Shown one piece after another: positions 2,997 to 18,728 of a DNA stretch of 64,000 bases (positions within the stretch are counted from its first letter, which is position 1; every line of letters begins with the position of its first letter). A model generated the notes under the pieces. That model saw nothing but the letters and a program-made list of their open reading frames with translations, did no database searches and was not told the DNA's origin. Origin of the DNA: Bacteroidota bacterium (lineage in GTDB: Bacteria > Bacteroidota > Bacteroidia > Chitinophagales > Saprospiraceae); the NCBI GenBank assembly GCA_016124585.1, contig WGNL01000014.1, positions 62,001 to 126,000 on the forward strand, in the 5' to 3' direction. The position numbers were made by a program, and so were the translations under genes.

Positions 2997-3059
2997 ACGC
3001 CACCAAAAATCGCTGGCAAAAACGGGTAAGGCAGCACCCAAAAGCAGAGTTTTACCTTC

Positions 3060-3290
3060 AATCACGAGCAAATGGCTTTGCTCGTTGAGCGGACGGCTTC
3101 GCTCAACGAGATAACGACCTTTCTTGACGAGCTAATGCGTTTCCTCAACGAGCAAATGGCTTTCCTCAACGAGCTAATGCGTTCCCTCGACGAGCTAAGT
3201 ACTTTTCTTCATGAGAAAGGCACTTCCCTCAATGAGAAAGGCCGTTTCCTCCTCGGGATAAGCCGTTTGCTTGACGAGGAGGGCTTTTTT
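3060..3290 (+). repeat. 21-bp tandem array, 11 units, heptad-like open frame
   Basis: The triplet GAG (once GGG) recurs at 3066, 3087, 3108, 3129, 3150, 3171, 3192, 3213, 3234, 3255 and 3276, exactly every 21 bp. The unit resembles CTCAACGAGCTAATGCGTTTC with two to eight changes. Read on the plus strand from ATG 3072 the array is open to 3311 and would give heptads of the form LNExMxF, a possible short coiled coil. No ribosome binding site or relative was recognised, and differences between units fall mostly in first and second codon positions. Array is certain; coding status is not. Confidence 0.85.
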
Positions 3291-3450
3291 CCGCTGCACT
3301 TGTGGCAATGAAAGCATCGGTGCCATCAAGAGACGAAAAGAATACGATGACCACCAATTTGATGCAAAAGCACAAAACTGATATTGAGTGTGCGAGCTTC
3401 GTTATCAGTATAGCATAATAGCTGCATTTAGTGCCTGCAACGGTATTTAT

Positions 3451-8779: not shown

Positions 8780-10132
8780 ATGGCAAACGAAAAAAAAGCA
8801 GTCATTGTCGGCGCAGGCCTCGTCGGCGCTTTATGGGCAGTGATTTTGGCAAAAAGGGGCTACACCGTTGATGTGTACGAACGCCGTCCCGATTTCCGGG
8901 AAGCTGGCTATATCGGTGGCCGTTCCATCAACCTCGCCCTCAGTGAGCGGGGCTGGAAGGCGGTGGAAATCGCTGGCATTCGGGAGAAAATAGAAAAAGT
9001 GGCCATCCCGATGCCGGGCCGCATGATGCACGGCACGGATGGTTCGCTCACTTTCCAAGCCTACGGTGAAGAGGGGCAAGCCATCTACTCCGTCAGTCGG
9101 GGCGGCCTGAACATTGAGTTGGTAAACATCGCCGATGAGTTTGAGCAGGTGCGTTTTCACTTCAACCAAGCCTGCCGGGGGGTTGATCTCGAAAACAGCA
9201 CCATCCGCTTCGAGGATACCAATACAGGTGTTCGTTACGCCATCGAAAGCGACCTGATTTTTGGGACGGACGGCGCTTTTTCGCCCGTGCGACAGAGCCT
9301 CCAGAAGCTGCCCCGCTTCAATTATTCCCAGCATTATATCGATTCTGGCTACAAGGAATTGGCCATCCTTCCCAACGGCGACGGCAGCCATAAAATGGAC
9401 ACTGGTGCCCTGCACATCTGGCCCCGTGGCAATTTCATGCTCATCGCCCTGCCCAATTTGGACGGTAGTTTTACCTGCACGCTGTTCCTGCCGTTCGAGG
9501 GGGAGGTGAGCTTCGAAAAGCTGCAAACCGAGGTGCAGGTGTTGGCTTTCTTCGAAAAATATTTCCCCGACGTGATTCCGCTGATGCCCACACTGGTGCA
9601 GGATTTTATGGAAAATCCAACTTCGGCGCTGGTCACGGTGCGCTGCAACCCTTGGCACTACCAACATAAAATCCTGCTGCTCGGCGATGCTGCCCATGCC
9701 ATCGTGCCGTTCTATGGGCAGGGTATGAACGCTGGCTTTGAGGACTGCACCATCCTCGATAGCCTGATGGACAAATACGATGAGGATTGGCCCGCCATCA
9801 TGGAGGAATTCAACGCCAGCCGACCGGAAGATGCGAATGCCATCGCCGACCTAGCGTTGTTGAATTTCATCGAAATGCGGGACAAAGTGGCCGACCCGCA
9901 GTTTTTGCTCCGCAAAAAAATAGAAGGGCACCTGCACGAGCGTTTTCCGAAGGAATTCCAATCGGTTTATTCCATGGTTAGTTTCAGCCATGTGCCGTAC
10001 AGCCAAGCACTGGCCGCCGTTGCGCAGCAGGATGCTTTGTTTCAGAAGATGTTGAAAATCAACAATTTGGAAGAAAACTGGAATGGACCGGAGGTGGAGG
10101 CCGTGTTCAAGGAGTGGTTAGCTGGCCTGTAA
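8780..10132 (+). CDS. kmo: Kynurenine 3-monooxygenase
   Basis: An FAD- and NADPH-dependent aromatic hydroxylase that turns kynurenine into 3-hydroxykynurenine on the tryptophan-to-quinolinate route to NAD. The 450-residue protein has the FAD-binding GAGLVGALWAVILAKRG motif at residues 11-27, GGRSINLALSERG near 47-59 (characteristic of this family) and the second FAD motif GDAAHAIVPFYGQGMNAGFED near residue 300. No other kynurenine gene is adjacent, but nadD lies 10 kb away. The last 15 bp overlap the convergent lspA. Start ATG 8780 is supported by the nearby -7 box. Confidence 0.95.
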   Translation: MANEKKAVIVGAGLVGALWAVILAKRGYTVDVYERRPDFREAGYIGGRSINLALSERGWKAVEIAGIREKIEKVAIPMPGRMMHGTDGSLTFQAYGEEGQAIYSVSRGGLNIELVNIADEFEQVRFHFNQACRGVDLENSTIRFEDTNTGVRYAIESDLIFGTDGAFSPVRQSLQKLPRFNYSQHYIDSGYKELAILPNGDGSHKMDTGALHIWPRGNFMLIALPNLDGSFTCTLFLPFEGEVSFEKLQTEVQVLAFFEKYFPDVIPLMPTLVQDFMENPTSALVTVRCNPWHYQHKILLLGDAAHAIVPFYGQGMNAGFEDCTILDSLMDKYDEDWPAIMEEFNASRPEDANAIADLALLNFIEMRDKVADPQFLLRKKIEGHLHERFPKEFQSVYSMVSFSHVPYSQALAAVAQQDALFQKMLKINNLEENWNGPEVEAVFKEWLAGL

Positions 10133-10738: not shown

Positions 10739-12085
10739 CTAAATTTCTCTTTTCCCATCAAACTGCTCCAAATAATCCCCTACCCGACGGATGAACGAAC
10801 CGCCCAGCGACCCATCCACCACCCGGTGGTCGTAGCTCATGGAGAGGAACATCATTTGCCGAACGGCAATCAAATCGCCGTACTCGGTTTCCACCACGGC
10901 AGGCTTTTTGCGGATAGCGCCCACGGCCATGATGGCTACCTGCGGCTGGTTGATGATAGGCGTTCCCATCACGTTGCCGAAGGTACCGACGTTGGTGAGG
11001 GTAAAGGTGCCTTCCTGGATTTCCTCCGGTTTCAGCTTGCCTTGGCGGGCACGACCAGCGAGGTCGTTAACGGACTTCGTAAGGCCGACGAGGTTCATCG
11101 TATTCGCATTTTTGATGACGGGTACGATGAGGTTGCCAGTCGGCAATGCCGTGGCCATGCCGATATTGATGTCTTTTTTGACGATGATGCGGTTGCCGTC
11201 CACCGAGACATTTATCATCGGGAAATCGCCAACAGCCCTGGCGACCGCCTCCACGAAAATGGGCGTGTAGGTGATTTTTTCGCCATATTTTTTCTCAAAA
11301 GCGCCTTTCACCCGTTCCCGCCAGTTGACGATGTTGGTCACGTCCACCTCCACGAAGCTGGTCACGTGCGGCGAGGTATGCTTCGACATCACCATGTGGT
11401 CGGCGATGAGCTTGCGCATCCGGTCCATTTCCACGATTTCGGTGTTGCCGGAGACGCTAATGGCGGGTTTTGCCCCCCCTGCCCCCCCAAGGGGGGATTG
11501 AATAGCGGCTGGTTGGACCGGGGCAGCAACTGGGCTGCCAACTGAACTACGATTTTCGACATAAGCCAAAATATCGTGCTTCGTGACCCGACCTGCTTGG
11601 CCGCTGCCGGGGATGCTGTCCAATTCGGCGATGCTGATGTTTTCGGTTTTGGCGATATTTTTTACCAATGGGGAATAAAAACGGTCGCTGGCGGGTGTGT
11701 AAGAAGTAGGTGAAGCGCTGGCAACAGCTACTGGTTCGTGGACAGCGGGAGCAGGGTGTGAAACGCCGTTGGAATGGCCGTTCGAGGAGGCGGGCACAGC
11801 GTCTTCCTTCACGGCAGGAGATGGTTTGGTCGAAGCGGCTTCGCCTTCCGTGGCAATGATGGCGATGGTTTTGCCGACAGGCACCACGTCGTTTTCCTTG
11901 AAAAGTATTTCAGAAATGACGCCTGCGGTGGGGGATGGCACCTCGGAGTCCACTTTGTCCGTCGCAATTTCGAGGATGGTTTCATCGGCTTCCACCCGGT
12001 CGCCTACATTTTTTGCCCACCGGAGGATGGTGGCTTCGATGATGCTTTCGCCCATTTTGGGCATTATCAGTTCTACCTGTGCCAT
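10739..12085 (-). CDS. Dihydrolipoyl acyltransferase, E2 of a 2-oxo acid dehydrogenase
   Basis: The core subunit of a 2-oxo acid dehydrogenase complex, transferring acyl groups from lipoate to CoA. The 448 residues comprise one N-terminal lipoyl domain with the lipoylated Lys44 in TDKVDSE, a flexible Ala/Pro/Ser-rich linker, a peripheral subunit-binding domain (about 137-175, YSPLVKNIAKTENI) and the catalytic domain with DHRVVDG at about 419-425. The single lipoyl domain and its sequence style suggest the branched-chain or general 2-oxo acid type rather than 2-oxoglutarate, but this cannot be fixed without E1, which is not adjacent. A -7 box lies about 100 bp upstream. Confidence 0.93.
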   Translation of the reverse strand: MAQVELIMPKMGESIIEATILRWAKNVGDRVEADETILEIATDKVDSEVPSPTAGVISEILFKENDVVPVGKTIAIIATEGEAASTKPSPAVKEDAVPASSNGHSNGVSHPAPAVHEPVAVASASPTSYTPASDRFYSPLVKNIAKTENISIAELDSIPGSGQAGRVTKHDILAYVENRSSVGSPVAAPVQPAAIQSPLGGAGGAKPAISVSGNTEIVEMDRMRKLIADHMVMSKHTSPHVTSFVEVDVTNIVNWRERVKGAFEKKYGEKITYTPIFVEAVARAVGDFPMINVSVDGNRIIVKKDINIGMATALPTGNLIVPVIKNANTMNLVGLTKSVNDLAGRARQGKLKPEEIQEGTFTLTNVGTFGNVMGTPIINQPQVAIMAVGAIRKKPAVVETEYGDLIAVRQMMFLSMSYDHRVVDGSLGGSFIRRVGDYLEQFDGKREI

Positions 12086-12091
12086 GATTTC

Positions 12092-12277
12092 AATGATGAA
12101 TGATAAATGGTGAATGGTGAACTTTCCAAGACTCCCACCTGCTCGCCATTTCGGTTTTATAAAATTTGGTTAGGAAAATAACGCCGCAAAGTTAGGGAAG
12201 GAAAACGAGAAATGTAAAACGGGCTGAAATGATTGCAGCCCACCTGAAGATTCATTCACCATTTATCATTCATCATT
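12092..12277. repeat. Oligomer-array inverted repeat (ATGAATG type), 25-bp perfect arms
   Basis: Arms at 12092-12116 and 12253-12277 are exact reverse complements built from ATGATGA/ATGGTGA-like oligomers, 136 bp apart. The right arm contains the pcm stop codon and the left arm begins 7 bp before the E2 start. The pair therefore occupies the pcm-E2 gap end to end, with the E2 promoter inside the loop. Confidence 0.8.
12187..12194 (-). promoter_or_regulatory. -7 element of the E2 gene
   Basis: TAACTTTG on the minus strand exactly fits TAnnTTTG. It lies about 100 nt before the E2 start, inside the loop of the 12092-12277 inverted repeat, giving a leader that would carry the left arm. Confidence 0.4.
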
Positions 12278-12929
12278 TACCATTAGAAATGGTGCCGCCG
12301 ATAAAAGGGACGAAGCGGAAATCGCCAAAATCCTCCTCTGCCCATTCGGTTTCCGATTTTTTGGTGATGCGGAGCATCCTTTGTGAGGCCGTACCGACCG
12401 GAATGACCATGATGCCACCAATACGAAGCTGGTCAATCAGCGTCTGTGGCACCTCTGTGGCACCTGCCGTCACGATGATTTTGTCGTAAGGCGCAAACTC
12501 CCGCAGGCCCTTCGTGCCATCCCGGAAATAGCAGCGGATATTAGCGAAGCCCAAGTCGGCGAGCCGTTTTTTTGCTTCGTGAAAAAGCTGCTCCTGCCGC
12601 TCCACAGTGAAAACCCTTGCTTCCAGTTTGCCCAAAATCGCTGCTTGGTAGCCGGAACCTGTGCCGATTTCGAGCACTCGGTCCCGCTTCTGCACATTCA
12701 ATAATTGCGTCTGAAATGCCACTGTGAACGGCTGCGAAATGGTCTGCTCCCGCTCAATGGGCAGGGCTTTGTCCTCGTAGGCAAGGTCGGCGAAGGCACT
12801 ATCGAGGAAGAAATGGCGGGGCACGGCATCCATCGCTGCCAGCACACGCCCGTCGGTGATACCTTTTTTCCGTAGGGAATCAACGAGTTTGCGGCGGAGG
12901 CCTTTGTGTCGGTAGGTGTCGGCTTGCAT
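12273..12929 (-). CDS. pcm: Protein-L-isoaspartate O-methyltransferase
   Basis: A cytoplasmic repair enzyme that methylates isoaspartyl residues in aged proteins with S-adenosylmethionine. The 218-residue protein carries the SAM-binding loop EIGTGSGYQAAIL near residue 88 and family blocks FLDSAFADLAYEDKALPI and ITVTAGATEVPQ-like text (IIVTAGATEVPQ). Length is normal. Its start ATG is at 12929. The stop lies inside an oligomer array. It is the last ordinary gene before the AT-rich insert at 13 kb. Confidence 0.95.
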   Translation of the reverse strand: MQADTYRHKGLRRKLVDSLRKKGITDGRVLAAMDAVPRHFFLDSAFADLAYEDKALPIEREQTISQPFTVAFQTQLLNVQKRDRVLEIGTGSGYQAAILGKLEARVFTVERQEQLFHEAKKRLADLGFANIRCYFRDGTKGLREFAPYDKIIVTAGATEVPQTLIDQLRIGGIMVIPVGTASQRMLRITKKSETEWAEEDFGDFRFVPFIGGTISNGK

Positions 12930-13070
12930 GGTGATTTTAAATTCCGTGCAAGGTAGGAAAAGTGGGGGAACGCCGATTTGGAGGTTCCAAATCGGCGGTT
13001 TTTTTATGCAATCTAATCGGCTTCAAATTGCAAGTCAAAAATATTGCATTATAGCTAACTTGAGATTCCG

Positions 13071-13985
13071 TTATTCAATTTTCAAGGATTTTAGAGCTTC
13101 TTCCTTTTGTGAATATAAATCTTCTAGTGCTTTATCTAATGAGGCTAGGGTTGCCTTGTATTCATCCACAATGTTTGACAGCTGGTTTTCTAAGCTTTTT
13201 ACTTGTTCAATTGCGTTATTTTCTTTAAGCGTCTTGATTGATGTTTTTAACTTACTAATTGCGTCATCATAATTTTTACTAATTGTGCTTCTTTGATTAA
13301 TTAATTCGACTTGCATATTCTCAAATAAATCATCTATTTCATGAGAAATTTCTAATTGTAGTCGAGTTTTCATTTCCTGTTGAGCCGACGCAATCTCACC
13401 TGTCATCTCATTCGATACAGTTTCAATCTCTCTTTTGTGCTCGTCAATTTGAGTACTAACTTCTTTCAAAAAAAATTGGGGTAAATTAAATTTAATTTCA
13501 GTTGTTTCCATTCTTACAACAGGCTTATCAAATTTAACTTCCATACGCCTGCTGTTGAATTTCGGAATATCTGTTTTGATTGTCACTCTTTTCATGTAAG
13601 GCTCAGGCACATCAAGGTATATACATGTCCAGTACATCTTTAGCCCATGAAATTCAGGTTTTTTTGCAACACATTTAGTTACCATTCGAGTAGCAGGAAC
13701 ATCAAAACTGAAATCTTCGGTTTCCATTCTTACTTCGGGGATATCAAATTTTAATTCTTCTCTTTCCATGGTAAACTTAGGCACATCAAATTTTATTGAA
13801 GTAGTTCGCCATTTGACATCAAAAGTAAAATTTAATGCAGCTTCTACATTTGATGGGTCAGGAGCATCTTCGTTTATTTCATTAATTCTTTTTGCCCCTT
13901 TCTCTCGGATTTGATTAATCCTTTCTTCAAATTTTTTCTTAATCTCATCAACTTTTAGTTGAATTCTCTCGTTTGGATTTTCCAT
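13071..13985 (-). CDS. Unrecognised protein: 14-residue repeat region plus coiled coil
   Basis: No family recognised. The 304 residues fall in three parts. Residues 1-45 are a charged helix. Residues about 55-195 contain seven or eight copies of a 14-residue repeat of the form xxxIKFDVPxFxME (for example SIKFDVPKFTME, ELKFDIPEVRME, EVKFDKPVVRME). One longer unit holds two cysteines and reads YLDVPEPYM at its end. Residues about 200-304 are heptad-rich and should form a coiled coil. There is no signal peptide. The regular hydrophobic-charged alternation suggests stacked beta-strands. The DNA is AT-rich compared with its neighbours. It follows the membrane-protein gene at 14.1 kb on the same strand, 150 bp away, and may work with it. 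Confidence 0.75.
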   Translation of the reverse strand: MENPNERIQLKVDEIKKKFEERINQIREKGAKRINEINEDAPDPSNVEAALNFTFDVKWRTTSIKFDVPKFTMEREELKFDIPEVRMETEDFSFDVPATRMVTKCVAKKPEFHGLKMYWTCIYLDVPEPYMKRVTIKTDIPKFNSRRMEVKFDKPVVRMETTEIKFNLPQFFLKEVSTQIDEHKREIETVSNEMTGEIASAQQEMKTRLQLEISHEIDDLFENMQVELINQRSTISKNYDDAISKLKTSIKTLKENNAIEQVKSLENQLSNIVDEYKATLASLDKALEDLYSQKEEALKSLKIE

Positions 13986-14135
13986 TATGATTTTTTTTAT
14001 TGTTAATTAATTTTTTCCTCTTGATAAGGCAGCTCATTTGTGTAGTACCAACCCATTTTGATTAAAAATCATCCCATTTTAATTCCATTATTTATTTATA
14101 ACATGTATTATTTTCAATCAGATATTGAGCTTTCC

Positions 14136-14903
14136 TTAGTCTTTTAAATTCAAAAATCTAGCTATCAAGGAATCCGTTACCCAACCCAAGACTTTACCAT
14201 CTGCATTTCCATTTTCTGTCACGAAAATATCTCTACACTGTTCGACAGCTTTCATTTTTTCGATTGCTTTTTCTAATATTTCATTTTTTGAAACTATAAT
14301 GAATCCCTTTTTCTTGTTCAATGAAAACATTTCTTTATATTCAGCTTCGTTCTTTAAAATAGCCTCTAATGTATAACCATTCTTTTCTTCATCATTTTTC
14401 GCTTTTACTAAATGGTTGTCGATAGTGCTCTTGTGAATAATATATTGCGGACTTAGGTCTTTGCCAAAAATGGGACATCTATCCTTTCTTACACTTGCTA
14501 AAAAAGCGGATAAATCGACTAATTTGCAATTTTTCAACTCATCTTGTGATAATTCTTTATAGACTATAGTTGGAGTGTCTATCATAACATTTTCGATAGG
14601 AATATCATCAATCATATCAGGTCTAAGTGCATTTACTATTTGTCTTGATGCAGCTTCAAAATTCTCTTTTCCAAAGTAAAATGCTAAAACAGTTCCAACC
14701 CATGTTGCAAGTAAGGGGATTATTGTGTTAAAAACAGTTTTATATCCGTCAGGGTTAACAGAATTAATTATCCCCCAAGATAATATCCCTATAATTAAAA
14801 GTGCCCCGCACAATATTATATAAGACAGTAAACTCCTGTTAGTAGAATTTGATGTAGAGTCAGAAGTAATGAGTTTTAAAATCGAATTGCGATCACTTTT
14901 CAT
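14136..14903 (-). CDS. Unrecognised membrane protein with possible CBS-like C-terminus
   Basis: A 255-residue protein. Two hydrophobic helices (about residues 24-47 and 57-75, the second with LLATWVGTVLAFYFGKENFE) anchor it, and the rest should be cytoplasmic. The last 60 residues (FIIVSKNEIL to VLGWVTDSLIARFL) read like a CBS domain, which usually binds adenine nucleotides; this is pattern recognition only. A second CBS-like stretch earlier (about 120-170) is weaker. It is AT-rich and is followed by the 14-residue-repeat gene. The pair looks like an acquired cassette between housekeeping genes. Function unknown. Confidence 0.75.
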   Translation of the reverse strand: MKSDRNSILKLITSDSTSNSTNRSLLSYIILCGALLIIGILSWGIINSVNPDGYKTVFNTIIPLLATWVGTVLAFYFGKENFEAASRQIVNALRPDMIDDIPIENVMIDTPTIVYKELSQDELKNCKLVDLSAFLASVRKDRCPIFGKDLSPQYIIHKSTIDNHLVKAKNDEEKNGYTLEAILKNEAEYKEMFSLNKKKGFIIVSKNEILEKAIEKMKAVEQCRDIFVTENGNADGKVLGWVTDSLIARFLNLKD

Positions 14904-14958
14904 AGTTCATGTTTTAAATTAAAATATTCTATGGAACATTTGCTTTAGAAACTGCTGT

Positions 14959-15690
14959 TCATCCCTCACCTACAGGTGTATCCCCACCCCCCTTCTTCCT
15001 CTCCGCCCTCACCCTCCGCAACAACACCGCCATCGTATAATCCGGCACCCGCTCTGGCGTACCGGAAAGCGTGCTATGAATCACTTTCCCCGTCTTCGAC
15101 ACATCCTGCATGGCTTCAAACAGGGCGTCGAACAGGTCGATATTGTCGTTCATGAGTTGATTGCGAGCTTGTATATTGTCGTTTTGCAGGGTATTGTCGG
15201 TGGTAAGCGCGGCAGGGAGAGCAGCCATTTCGGTTTTGGTGGCGGCTTTGAGTCCCTTTGCGGTGAGGGCGGTCAGGTTCGCATCCATGTTTTGGAGGAC
15301 GGTTCGCAGGCTGGTGATGACGGCTTCCACGTCCTTTTTGCTGAGTTTTTTGCGGAGGTCACGGCAGCCAAAGTCATCGGGAGCAACCGTGAGTGCAGCG
15401 CCAGCCCTGTCCACATAACTTTCAACGAGTTTGTTGAGTGTTTTAAGGCGATCGAGATTGGTTGCAATGCGGGCAGTGACCAATTTACCTTCTTTGGTCA
15501 ATTGGAGAGGATAAACCACTGTGTTCACGCTGGCTATTTGCGCAGCAAAATTGGTAGCATAAGCAGCGTTGAAATCTCCGCTGTAATCCGTGAACAAGGC
15601 TAGGTCACGGTTGAAACTGGAAAGTAGAAACTGAGCGACGGCTGGCTGTTCTTCATGTCGCCCCTGAAATTTCTTTTTAGGGCCTGCCAT
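14959..15690 (-). CDS. Unrecognised helical protein
   Basis: No family recognised. The 243 residues are hydrophilic with no signal peptide or membrane helix, and appear mainly alpha-helical. The N-terminus is basic (MAGPKKKFQGRHEEQPAVAQF) and the C-terminus is Arg/Lys-rich (LLRRVRAERKK). Two long helical stretches run through residues 60-130 and 150-210. Its base composition and codon use resemble the housekeeping genes, unlike the AT-rich gene after it. It is preceded by a 425-bp gap carrying the 21-bp array, so that array is a candidate control region for this gene. The start ATG is at 15690. Confidence 0.75.
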   Translation of the reverse strand: MAGPKKKFQGRHEEQPAVAQFLLSSFNRDLALFTDYSGDFNAAYATNFAAQIASVNTVVYPLQLTKEGKLVTARIATNLDRLKTLNKLVESYVDRAGAALTVAPDDFGCRDLRKKLSKKDVEAVITSLRTVLQNMDANLTALTAKGLKAATKTEMAALPAALTTDNTLQNDNIQARNQLMNDNIDLFDALFEAMQDVSKTGKVIHSTLSGTPERVPDYTMAVLLRRVRAERKKGGGDTPVGEG

Positions 15691-15930
15691 TGGGGGTGTC
15701 TGTTTTAAGTGTTTATACTATGGGCTTGGTCATACCGGGTTTAGGGTCGGCTGTTTTCAAGCGGTTAACGAAAGCAAAGAAAAATAGCAGTTTTGATTTA
15801 GCGAAATATTTTCTAAAATTTTTATTTGGCTAAATTATGTAAGGCAGGAATAGGGTGTCAAGGATTGGCTATTTGGCAGAATTTAAGCTAAGTTGCCAAA
15901 TTTTATAAGGCAGGAACCGATTTTCGATAT
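15691..15930. other. Gap ahead of the 21-bp array, with small repeats
   Basis: No gene seen. The 11-mer TAAGGCAGGAA occurs twice (15840-15850 and 15906-15916), 66 bp apart. Between them ATTTGGCA (15871-15878) pairs with TGCCAAAT (15894-15901). On the minus strand TATTTTTC (15779-15786) is a weak -7-like element for the gene starting at 15690. Confidence 0.5.
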
Positions 15931-16108
15931 TATGAACGCTTAATTCATATTTATGAACTCATTTAATGGGTATAAGAACGCTATTTTTAGCGCTATGAAC
16001 TCATTTTTTGGTCTTATGAACCAATAAATTAACCATAAGAACCCATTTCAATATCGTATGAACCGATATGAATAGTTTATGAACCATGTTGTATTGAATA
16101 TGAACCCT
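15931..16108. repeat. 21-bp phased array of TATGAAC boxes, nine units
   Basis: GAAC begins at 15934, 15955, 15976, 15997, 16018, 16039, 16060, 16081 and 16102, exactly every 21 bp. Seven units read TATGAAC and two read TAAGAAC; the base after the box is mostly C or T. The remaining 13-14 bases differ between units. An imperfect tenth GAAC lies at 15914, 20 bp before. Every frame has stops, so it is not coding now. In the frame of the ATG it would read MN followed by five variable residues. It lies between the accC stop and the 243-residue gene's start. Spacing of 21 bp is two DNA turns, as expected for same-face protein binding. Confidence 0.9.
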
Positions 16109-16115
16109 ATATAAT

Positions 16116-17462
16116 TCAATCCTCCGTCCCCATATCAAAGTCATTCAAGAAGCCCGTGTGGAAGTTCCCGGCACGGAAATTCTCGTCCTTCATCAGTTTT
16201 TTGTGGAAAGGTATAGTGGTTTTGATGCCTTCCACGATGAATTCTTCGAGGGCACGTTCCATCTTCGTGATGCACTCCTCACGGGTGCGGGCACGGCAGA
16301 TAAGCTTCGCAATCATGGAGTCGTAGTAGGGCGGGATGACGTAGCCGGCGTACACATGGGTGTCCACCCGGACGCCGTGGCCCTTGGCGGTGTGGAGGGA
16401 AACGATTTTGCCGGGCGACGGGCGGAAGTCCTTGTACACGTCCTCGGCGTTGATGCGGCATTCCATGGCGTGCATCTCCGGGATGTAGTTCTTGCCGGAA
16501 ATCGGCTCGCCCATGGCCACTTTCAGTTGCTCTTTTATCAGGTCATGGTCAATCACCTCCTCGGTCACCGGATGCTCCACCTGGATACGGGTGTTCATTT
16601 CCATGAAATAGAAATTGCGGTATTTGTCCACGAGGAACTCGATGGTGCCCACGCCTTCATAGTTAATGGCTTGACCCGCCTTGATGGAAGCTTCGCCCAT
16701 TTTCTCTCGCAATTCGGGCGTCATGAACGGGCTGGGGCTTTCCTCCACCAGCTTTTGGTGGCGGCGCTGGATGCTGCACTCCCGCTCGGAGAGGTGACAG
16801 ACGTTGCCAAACTGGTCGCCGACAATCTGGAACTCAATGTGGCGGGGTTCTTCAATGTATTTTTCGATGTAAATGCCGTCGTTGCCGAAGGACGCCTTGG
16901 CCTCGTTGCGGGCCATGTTCCAGTTGGCTTCAAATGTGGCTTCTTCCCAGATGACCCGCATCCCCTTTCCTCCACCACCAGCAGTCGCCTTGATGATGAC
17001 CGGGTAACCGATTTCTTTCGCCAGTTTGATGCCTTCTTTTACATCGGTAATAAGGCCGCCAGAGCCGGGCACCACAGGCACGCCAGCTTCAATCATCGTG
17101 GCTTTGGCCGTGATTTTATCGCCCATCATGCGGATCTGGGTGGGCGTCGGGCCGATGAACTTGATGCCGTATTCCCCGCAGATTTCAGCGAAATCGGCAT
17201 TTTCCGCCAAAAAACCATAGCCAGGATGGATGGCATCGGCGTTGGTGATTTCGGCAGCCGCCATGATGCGGGGGATATTCAGATAGGAATCCTTGGATTG
17301 GGCTGGGCCAACGCAGACGGCTTCGTCGGCGAAGCGAACGTGGAGGCTGTCGGCATCGGCTGTGGAGTAGATGGCCACGGTTTTGATGCCCATTTCACGG
17401 CAGGTACGGATGACCCGCAACGCTATTTCACCTCGGTTGGCTATAAGAACTTTGTCGAACAT
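16116..17462 (-). CDS. accC: Acetyl-CoA carboxylase, biotin carboxylase subunit
   Basis: Carboxylates the biotin of AccB with bicarbonate and ATP in the first step of fatty acid synthesis. From ATG 17462 the protein is 448 residues and begins [17 protein letters not shown], the standard start; the frame extends further upstream but only through an oligomer array. ATP-grasp signatures are clear, including [25 protein letters not shown] and the preceding Glu/Asn metal ligands (FMEMNTR). It follows accB in the order fabH-efp-accB-accC on the minus strand. The array between accB and accC may attenuate or process the message. No odd features. Confidence 0.98.
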
Positions 17463-17468
17463 AAATTC

Positions 17469-17537
17469 AGGTATGAGGTATGGAGGTATGAGGGATGAGG
17501 GGTGTCGTGCATCCCTCATCCCTCATACCTCATACCT
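17469..17537. repeat. Oligomer-array inverted repeat (GGTATGA type) between accB and accC
   Basis: Left arm 17469-17504 consists of AGGTATG/AGGGATG oligomers and right arm 17510-17537 of their reverse complements, with a 5-bp loop and one slipped unit. It ends just 6 bp from each gene. It would form a long hairpin in the accB-accC message. Confidence 0.8.
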
Positions 17538-17542
17538 AAAAA

Positions 17543-18067
17543 TTAATCTGGCTCTACGAGGAAAAGTACTTGGTCGTACTCAACGGGGAGTGCGTTGTCA
17601 ACCATTACCTTGACGACGGTACCGCTGACTTCGCTTTCTATTTCATTGAAAAGCTTCATGGCCTCAATGATGCAAACAACATCGCCTTTTTTGACTTTCT
17701 GGCCAACTTCCACGTAGGAAGGCTTTTCTGGATTGGCGGAGCGATAGAATGTGCCCACCATGGGTGATTTTATGGGTAAATAATTTCCTCCGGATGATTC
17801 GGCTTTTGCTGGTGCAGCCGCAGGTGCAGCGGATGGTGCAGCAGGTGCTGGCGCAGCGGCTGGAGCTGGCGCAGCGGCAGGTGCCGCACTGACCACAGGC
17901 GGCGCTATCATCGGTGCCATTGGAGCGGAAATCACTTGCGTGGACTTCGTTTCCGAGTACAGCGCTGTGCGGATGGAGAGTTTGAAGTCGCCGTCTTCGA
18001 CCTTGAACTCGGCAAGGTTGGATTTGTTGAGGAGCTTGATCAGCTCCTGAATTTCCTGAAAAGTCAT
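17543..18067 (-). CDS. accB: Acetyl-CoA carboxylase, biotin carboxyl carrier protein
   Basis: Carries carboxybiotin between AccC and the carboxyltransferase. The 174-residue protein has an N-terminal helical segment (FQEIQELIKLLNKS), a long Ala/Pro linker (about residues 47-90) and the C-terminal biotinyl domain, with the biotinylated Lys138 in IIEAMKLFNEIE. Length and layout are typical. It lies 80 bp before accC on the same strand, separated by the oligomer hairpin. The start ATG is at 18067. Confidence 0.97.
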   Translation of the reverse strand: MTFQEIQELIKLLNKSNLAEFKVEDGDFKLSIRTALYSETKSTQVISAPMAPMIAPPVVSAAPAAAPAPAAAPAPAAPSAAPAAAPAKAESSGGNYLPIKSPMVGTFYRSANPEKPSYVEVGQKVKKGDVVCIIEAMKLFNEIESEVSGTVVKVMVDNALPVEYDQVLFLVEPD

Positions 18068-18103
18068 ATTCTCCGTTTTATTTGGAGGTCTAGGAGGTTG
18101 AGA

Positions 18104-18149
18104 GGGCTTAGAAGATTAAATAACTAAGTCATTTAAACCTGCTAAGCCC
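18104..18149. repeat. Short inverted repeat between efp and accB
   Basis: GGGCTTAG (18104-18111) pairs with CTAAGCCC (18142-18149) around 30 bp. Nearby text contains degenerate copies (CTAAG, CTAGG, CTACTAAG). It looks like a worn member of the oligomer-hairpin group. Confidence 0.45.
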
Positions 18150-18167
18150 GCTAAACACTAAACCCTA

Positions 18168-18728
18168 CTAAGCACGTCCCATGTAGTCACCGCTGTTGGT
18201 GTCCACTTTGATTTTTTCACCGGTGTTGATGAAAAGCGGCACTTTCACCTCTGCACCTGTGTCCACAGTGGCAGGTTTGTAAGTGTTGGTGGCAGTATCG
18301 CCTTTGATGCCTGGCTCGGTGTAGGTTACTTCCACGATTACTACCGATGGCATTTCGAGGCTCAATGGCATATCGTTGGCGGAGTTAAAAAGTACGTCCA
18401 CCACCATTCCTTCCTGAAGGAATTGTGGGCTGTTGATAAGGGTTTCTTCGAGGGCTACCTGTTCGTAGTCGTCCATGTTCATAAAATTATAGCCCATGTC
18501 GTCTTTGTACAAGTACTGGAACTTGCGGCGCTCCACCCGAACTTCAGTGATGGCGTGGCCGGAAGGCCAAGTGCGGTCCACTACTTTTCCTTTGGTCAGG
18601 GATTTCAATTTTGTTCGAACAAAAGCGGGGCCTTTGCCTGGTTTTACGTGCTGGAATTCCACTACAGTCCAGATGTCGCTGTCAATTTCCATGCACAAAC
18701 CATTTCGGATATCGGAAGTATCTGCCAT
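18168..18728 (-). CDS. efp: Elongation factor P
   Basis: Binds the ribosome between P and E sites and relieves stalling at proline stretches. From ATG 18728 the protein is 186 residues and starts MADTSDIRNGLCMEIDSD, matching the family; an upstream in-frame extension runs through an inverted repeat and is rejected. The tip loop is PGKGPAF with Lys32, the position modified in many bacteria. The C-terminal OB domains end VDTNSGDYMGRA, the standard ending. It has its own -7 box and lies between fabH and accB, as often in Bacteroidota. Confidence 0.98.
   Translation of the reverse strand: MADTSDIRNGLCMEIDSDIWTVVEFQHVKPGKGPAFVRTKLKSLTKGKVVDRTWPSGHAITEVRVERRKFQYLYKDDMGYNFMNMDDYEQVALEETLINSPQFLQEGMVVDVLFNSANDMPLSLEMPSVVIVEVTYTEPGIKGDTATNTYKPATVDTGAEVKVPLFINTGEKIKVDTNSGDYMGRA

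Follow-up and report, generated by a model that had tools for sequence, protein, structure and literature searches.

Arrays of direct repeats with a period of 21-22 bp are associated with genes of a helical-domain protein family, here called family X, across the phylum Bacteroidota, where they lie upstream of the gene. The period and upstream position of these arrays outlast their sequence. One such array, of nine boxes, is found in the window, the whole stretch of 64,000 nucleotides analyzed here (G000:C34:62001-126000, from contig C34 of a 6.63-Mb genome). We tentatively interpret it as a helically phased, locus-specific DNA-binding array in a gene control region, bound by a cognate protein that is perhaps the adjacent gene product; we give this reading somewhat less than an even chance. 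If true, it would define an unrecognized gene-plus-array unit in many Bacteroidota, with at least 10 copies in this one genome, and would provide a handle on protein families without known function. An upstream period of 21-22 bp is also a searchable signature that groups proteins beyond homology.

The nine-box array and its locus

The window array combines a 7-bp box with a 14-bp spacer. The features discussed here are as follows, in window positions.

15931-16105, minus strand: array of nine boxes with 21-bp spacing; read along the strand of the downstream gene, the unit consists of GTTCATA and 14 variable bases
15691-15930, minus strand: 240-bp leader between array and gene, with a block around GTTAACCGCTTGAAAAC common to the orthologue in a same-genus relative (G005)
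14959-15690, minus strand: family-X protein of 243 aa, helical domain only, without the CarboxypepD_reg tail
14136-14903, minus strand: 255-aa open reading frame (ORF) with weak CBS-domain similarity below the Pfam cut-off, in the same insertion as the array
13071-13985, minus strand: 304-aa ORF with weak apolipoprotein-type similarity below the Pfam cut-off, in the same insertion
12930-16115, no strand assigned: 3,186-bp stretch missing from four same-genus relatives
16116-17459, minus strand: accC, biotin carboxylase; upstream neighbor, outside the system
3028-3311, no strand assigned: another 21-bp array, of ACGAGCTAATGCGTTTCCTCA type and lacking a recognized X gene alongside; a separate locus

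The boxes start at 15931, 15952, 15973, 15994, 16015, 16036, 16057, 16078, and 16099, with a spacing of 21 bp throughout. A sequence-only reading of this DNA had described nine TATGAAC boxes at exact 21-bp spacing. Their number and spacing stand; the sequence is TATGAAC in seven boxes and TAAGAAC in the third and sixth. The majority base fills 61 of 63 positions in the box columns and 64 of 126 in the spacer columns (Fisher p = 8.6e-12), in agreement with the conserved box and free spacer of that reading. The spacers are almost random, indicating old duplications, and a box that stays nearly intact beside them is under constraint. The longest 21-bp chain of TA[TA]GAAC boxes numbered 9, against 1 in 5000 two-base-block shuffles of 15691-16116. 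None of the six frames is open across the array, which was correctly described as non-coding with stops in all frames.

The array had been placed between accC and an unrecognized gene. This is accurate (the accC stop codon lies 10 bp beyond the end of the last box), but it overlooked that the array is upstream of that 243-aa minus-strand gene, 240 bp from it, and that the genome has many more 21-bp arrays, of differing sequence. In four relatives from the same genus (G001, G005, G006, and G012), the gene corresponding to 12273-12929 of the window comes 76-82 bp after accC. The window thus contains 3,186 bp more than they do, and the array sits at one end of this insertion. In a fifth relative, G008, different DNA follows accC. 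The window accC is closest to those of metagenome-assembled genomes labeled Saprospiraceae or Bacteroidetes, with a best identity of 83%. No relative of the 255-aa ORF was found at the other own-genome X loci examined.

We rejected the idea of a conserved accC-linked element, as the examined stretches of 80 accC loci from other Bacteroidota hold no X gene. Repeats of other kinds do occur at such loci. Tandem 8-bp repeats of TGAGAGWT type or AGGAATCG type immediately follow accC in other genomes (L039 5340-5450; L331 and L335), and a CTTAACGCTTAACGCAGAACG repeat of period 21 with sub-periods lies at another Bacteroidota accC locus (L066 8672-8760). Within the second array of the window, positions 3072-3311 form an open 79-aa ORF that reads like a heptad repeat.

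Genome-wide, all four exact box pairs, and four of the six one-mismatch pairs, fall inside the window array. Elsewhere in the genome, the nearest match is on contig C30, where about five TATGAAT units form an array that contributes four two-mismatch pairs. This array (L111 9540-9782, TTATGAATGTCGCATAGAGCT type) differs from the window box by one letter and is flanked by a 401-aa gene and a 116-aa ORF without known family. A genome-wide family of TATGAAC arrays was therefore rejected, the closest candidate being this single array without a recognized X gene beside it.

Upstream arrays at family-X genes across the phylum

A period scan of genome stretches revealed further 21-bp arrays in the same genome, each differing in sequence. 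Family X was discovered via one of these, the array of L112. A 319-aa protein behind one own-genome array is one of 12 full-length members in the genome. All 12 have a C-terminal CarboxypepD_reg match (E <= 0.1), and nine, as well as the window gene, have an upstream array of period 21 or 42 (absent at L136, L137, and L139). The N-terminal domain is helical by prediction for the window member. Searches of Pfam and other collections returned no convincing family match for the helical domain, and the best PDB sequence match, at E 0.11, is likewise unconvincing.

The window protein is probably a remote, distant member of family X, judging from profile comparison. Against a profile of the 12 paralogues with itself left out, it scores 15.2 bits over nearly its full length, while the best of 2000 shuffles reaches 9.4. 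hhalign gives E 4e-4 with a probability of only 34%, and a blastp-type search of its own genome matches only itself. A later profile gives a strong E-value, but it already contains the window protein as one of its rows, which makes the argument circular. Its array provides independent support for membership. The protein ends 13 residues past the helical domain and has no CarboxypepD_reg match; other short-tailed members exist, so this tail does not define the whole family. An AlphaFold2 model of the protein alone has a mean pLDDT of 39 and is not usable.

No neighbor family is general to the own-genome X loci; a few pairs of loci have common relatives (L270 and L271 have two). Searches that require fairly close relatives gave no sign of carriage on mobile elements: the X protein L254 and the Y protein L378 (family Y is described below) had no match in plasmids, phages, or IMG/VR, L132 and the window protein had none in IMG/VR, and L305 had none in plasmids. 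Two paralogues share inverted TTATCAACC-type units of about 10 bp between the array and the X gene (L112 at about 17991-18110 and L268 at 9802-9938).

Upstream arrays are associated with X genes well beyond this genome. For genome searches, we used a profile of the helical domain built from 33 sequences (A3), and our own genome is included in each of the family, order, and phylum counts. Matches occur in at least 53 of 248 family genomes at E <= 1e-3, mostly weak and single, with strong matches in G000, G008, and G181. At E <= 1e-8, at least 25 of 396 order genomes and at least 13 of 395 phylum genomes have a match. Dropping duplicates, the partial gene L194, and the hitless L199 left 92 distinct X loci, and excluding four with less than 400 bp upstream left 88. 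We find an upstream array of period 21, 42, 22, or 43 at 65 of these 88 loci, which are the better-scoring members.

The best period is 21 at 52 loci, 42 at 6, 22 at 6, 43 at 1, and 33 at 1, and 22 loci have none that passes. The 23 loci without a passing 21/22-type period (these 22 and the one at 33 bp) include 3 of the 13 full-length members of our own genome. Of the 22, two are high at short periods but were filtered, with runs of N (L198 and L311), L200 is a gene fragment, and four peak at period 21 below the threshold (L185, L190, L282, and L302). At L191, likewise one of the 22, an array at 1599-1787 lies inside the frame; it may encode the N-terminus of the protein, or the start codon may be further in.

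The arrays lie mostly on the upstream side. Downstream flanks of X genes have a period-21 array at 2 of 59 loci and a period-14 array at 1 of 59. Among 629 control tiles of 1 kb from the 80 accC loci, period 21 was detected in 2 and other periods in 16, and no array match arose when 617 kb of own DNA was shuffled in two-base blocks. Averaged over the 65 arrays, self-identity reaches 0.61 at lag 21 and 0.33 at lag 22, and the remaining lags between 15 and 30 give 0.24-0.30. None of 27 weak-hit loci from the family search, single-copy proteins of about 240 aa that were not counted as X, has a 21/22 array. The promoter signal TAnnTTTG is not clearly enriched at the 65 loci, where the largest excess in a distance bin is 4 loci against 1.5 expected.

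Array sequence is rewritten at related genes. Among 14 genomes of the genus, only G005 (68%) and G001 (66%) have orthologues of the window gene, and neither orthologue has accC within 1.5 kb on either side. Both have upstream 21-bp arrays that are unrelated in sequence, of CTGGAAATACCTCTCCCACGA type and TAAACAC...AAAAT type (the G001 start codon is provisional). The leader between array and gene retains a recognizable block in G005 and less of it in G001. Thus, the gene, the upstream position, and the period persist while the unit is rewritten. The sequence-only reading had made conservation of the spacing in close relatives a test of itself, and at both same-genus orthologues the 21-bp spacing is kept. 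It had also proposed a search for TATGAAC arrays in the genome and its relatives; in the genome the nearest is the TATGAAT array noted above, and at the orthologues the box is not conserved. TATGAAC therefore does not serve as a general signal, and the recurrent features are the period and the type of gene behind it.

Across loci, array similarity has a mean z of 2.21 for 31 pairs with proteins at least 45% identical, versus 0.21 for 1515 other pairs, and several protein pairs at 63-74% identity show no array similarity. The arrays of L276 and L279, with proteins 98% identical, are without difference, and those of L308 and L319, which belong to one genome, show 10 substitutions between them over 420 bp, with no unit gained or lost. 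More distant pairs differ in unit number (18 versus 16 in L316/L320 and 8 versus 7 in L258/L262). A set of 60 arrays, the 65 minus L260 (period 43) and four with fewer than five units recovered (L187, L276, L279, and L295), spans 5-20 units with internal identities of 0.59-0.97. Column conservation is more uneven than under row-wise permutation in 34 of the 60 (p <= 0.01), in a test that presumes independent units and is inflated by block duplications or a common duplication history. A core of TCCG (8 arrays) or CGGA (5 arrays) recurs weakly among the 60, above column-permuted arrays, although related arrays are not independent.

Similar arrays precede genes of other families. The X member L310 can be aligned to almost the entire profile of the PQLLE family NF052641 of NCBIfam (E 9.9e-6). 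Its 25.4 bits, like the 16.5 of L300 and the 14.3 of L305, fall short of the curated cut-off of 80 bits, and the family lists of the 13 own-genome X members, which extend to E 0.1, do not include NF052641. Of 395 phylum genomes searched for PQLLE proteins, 7 have a match at E <= 1e-10, which exceeds the cut-off in 5; 14 control genomes have none. An upstream array of period 21 or 42 is present at 9 of 11 PQLLE loci (6 of 8 over the cut-off and 3 of 3 under it), and a downstream array at none of the 11. Family Y has four members in our own genome, three of them with arrays, of periods 22, 43, and 21. It was discovered through the 22-bp array that precedes its 226-aa member L120 (= L376), so the independent count is two of the three other members.

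On a further 400 kb, of contig C35, an array precedes the 307-aa protein L356, which has a CarboxypepD_reg tail. The same stretch has a period-21 match inside an ORF (L364) and, at 371.6 kb, the X gene L137 without an array. hhalign shows no relation of X to L356 or to Y. Some arrays have no X, Y, or PQLLE gene alongside: window 3028-3311, L111, L268 5824-6192, and L269 16155-16405. The one at L268, with a tandem period of 43 bp, neighbors what looks by eye like a restriction-type specificity gene and is some 4 kb away from an array-bearing X gene.

Possible roles of the arrays

In the reading that we favor, the array would act in cis, as a DNA element of the control region upstream of the X gene at 14959-15690. 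Each unit would be a single non-palindromic binding site, and units two helical turns apart would place protomers of one protein on one DNA face, bound cooperatively and head to tail. The binder might be specific to the locus, most simply the adjacent product or its oligomer. The outcome could be a nucleoprotein scaffold or autoregulation, and binder and array would perhaps co-diverge quickly, in the manner of ParR and parC. If such self-recognition is true, there would be many natural orthogonal DNA-binding pairs, and a bacterial case of array turnover under constant spacing.

Several points weigh against this reading. The X helical domain is usually acidic, with a predicted median pI of 5.6 and 25% above 8 among 88 domains (8.9 in the window member), which would not favor self-binding. 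Arrays differ between several proteins that are 66-74% identical, which seems fast for a change of specificity. Furthermore, there are arrays lacking X, Y, or PQLLE neighbors, and 23 of 88 X loci lack a 21/22-type period.

A wider interpretation is possible but doubtful: an undescribed, phylum-wide class of elements, in which two-turn-locked, locus-specific arrays are each paired with their own helical protein as a private address, forming a dozen or so orthogonal pairs in one genome. The partner protein would often be longer-tailed, with an N-terminus that is not signal-like. Array and gene would stay together while loci change, and the array would be rewritten faster than the protein, by analogy with eukaryotic centromeric satellites. 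This claim of a new class is based on gene-array association rather than on a proven mechanism.

The main rival to a locus-specific binding array, which we consider rather unlikely, is a sequence-independent structural element, where two-turn repetition yields a curved or bendable segment for a general nucleoid protein or RNA polymerase. It accounts for a period that persists while sequence turns over, and the predicted end-to-end ratio of 58 arrays averages 0.79 against 0.91 when shuffled, with 0.60 for the window array (wedge-angle model). However, the 0.79 is hardly below the 0.82 of column-permuted arrays (median percentile 0.47, same model), which suggests that little besides the period is selected for curvature, and a 97% conserved 7-bp box beside near-random spacers is left unexplained. 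If DNA geometry alone matters, helical phase would be selected irrespective of sequence, an unusual case that could be tested. Slightly less probable is a separately encoded protein, either a diversified regulator or a borrowed factor, that binds the locus-specific arrays and controls X, Y, and PQLLE genes. The element is common to proteins without detectable similarity to X (L356 and Y), X domains are mostly not basic, and the TCCG or CGGA core is recurrent, all of which would fit; on the other hand, each array would require its own regulator, and no neighbor family recurs throughout the own-genome X loci.

We regard a contingency locus as improbable. Slippage in unit number would here toggle the gene on or off, as tandem repeats do in some bacterial promoters, and the range of unit number and internal identity among the 60 arrays, like the unit differences in the more distant pairs, would fit it. 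However, the two very close pairs (L276/L279 and L308/L319) show no unit change, and degenerate arrays like that of the window are poor substrates for slippage. Neutral minisatellites accumulating by chance in non-coding DNA would explain why some arrays stand alone (window 3028-3311; L268 5824-6192), yet they are contradicted by the upstream bias (65 of 88 upstream versus 2 of 59 downstream, in one period class) and by the constrained window box, and we give them very little weight. Least credible of all are coding heptad repeats or a structured RNA. At least one frame is open in 43 of 56 21-bp arrays (mean 1.80 of 6 versus 1.40 when column-permuted), and the ORF in the second window array reads as a heptad repeat. 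Against this, homologous X genes are preceded by arrays of period 22 (e.g., L253, L261, L285, and L286) and 43 (L260), which excludes heptad codons for the array class, and the window array has no open frame. The decayed heptad-coding repeat that the sequence-only reading offered as its alternative thus fails for the class. Its primary proposal is supported in part, for a DNA-level element with exact two-turn spacing; the cooperative binding that it expects is putative. The folding energy of the 60 arrays equals that of column-permuted controls (mean z 0.05 sense and -0.16 antisense), and there is no Rfam match in 12000-18500. We therefore rejected coding heptads, RNA structure, and selected curvature on the basis of periods 22 and 43, the folding controls, and the column-permuted curvature, respectively.

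Comparison with known systems

The repeat element is apparently new to the literature, although direct-repeat binding arrays as such are already known. In the open-access full texts searched, we found no description of these arrays. CRISPR arrays have repeats of about 23-47 bp with unique spacers, plus cas genes. The 7-bp box and 14-bp spacer of the window are unlike this layout, and a Pfam scan of the five neighboring ORFs gave no cas match.

The iterons of plasmid replication origins are direct repeats of roughly 19-22 bp, spaced by some two helical turns. X-type arrays resemble them in repeat size and two-turn spacing. They differ in that no Rep initiator is recognized at the window, and in that one genome has 13 full-length paralogous X loci, of which 10 bear an array, with a unit particular to each. 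Among protein families, NF052641 is the nearest, through the alignment of L310 and the arrays at PQLLE loci, but the three X members tested are far under its cut-off. Its listing, which is separate from the full curator note, mentions neither function nor arrays.

The closest working analogue is parC of ParMRC plasmids. According to the part of one account that deals with these sites, parC consists of direct repeats of 10, 11, 17, or 20 bp bound by ParR; families have diverged, each with its own repeat sequence upstream of parM, and cognate-only binding has been demonstrated (PMC9426499). As described there, parC is like X-type arrays in having direct repeats upstream of its own gene with a family-specific sequence, and differs in that repeat size varies among parC sites while X-type arrays keep 21-22 bp throughout. 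At the window, no ParM-like actin-like ATPase is recognized among the 255-aa and 304-aa neighbors, and X has no match to ribbon-helix-helix proteins in Pfam, NCBIfam, or PDB sequences, a fold that sequence searches can miss. Thus, the window array may work like parC, and we do not propose that it is one.

Tandem repeats also lie upstream of the core promoter of the Mannheimia haemolytica leukotoxin gene, where unit sequence and number are associated with lineage, as far as the relevant portion of that study goes (PMC2697988). Those repeats comprise 2-3 units of 10 bp at one gene in one species (PMC2697988, same portion). X-type arrays, by contrast, have 5-20 units of 21-22 bp and occur at several gene families, phylum-wide.
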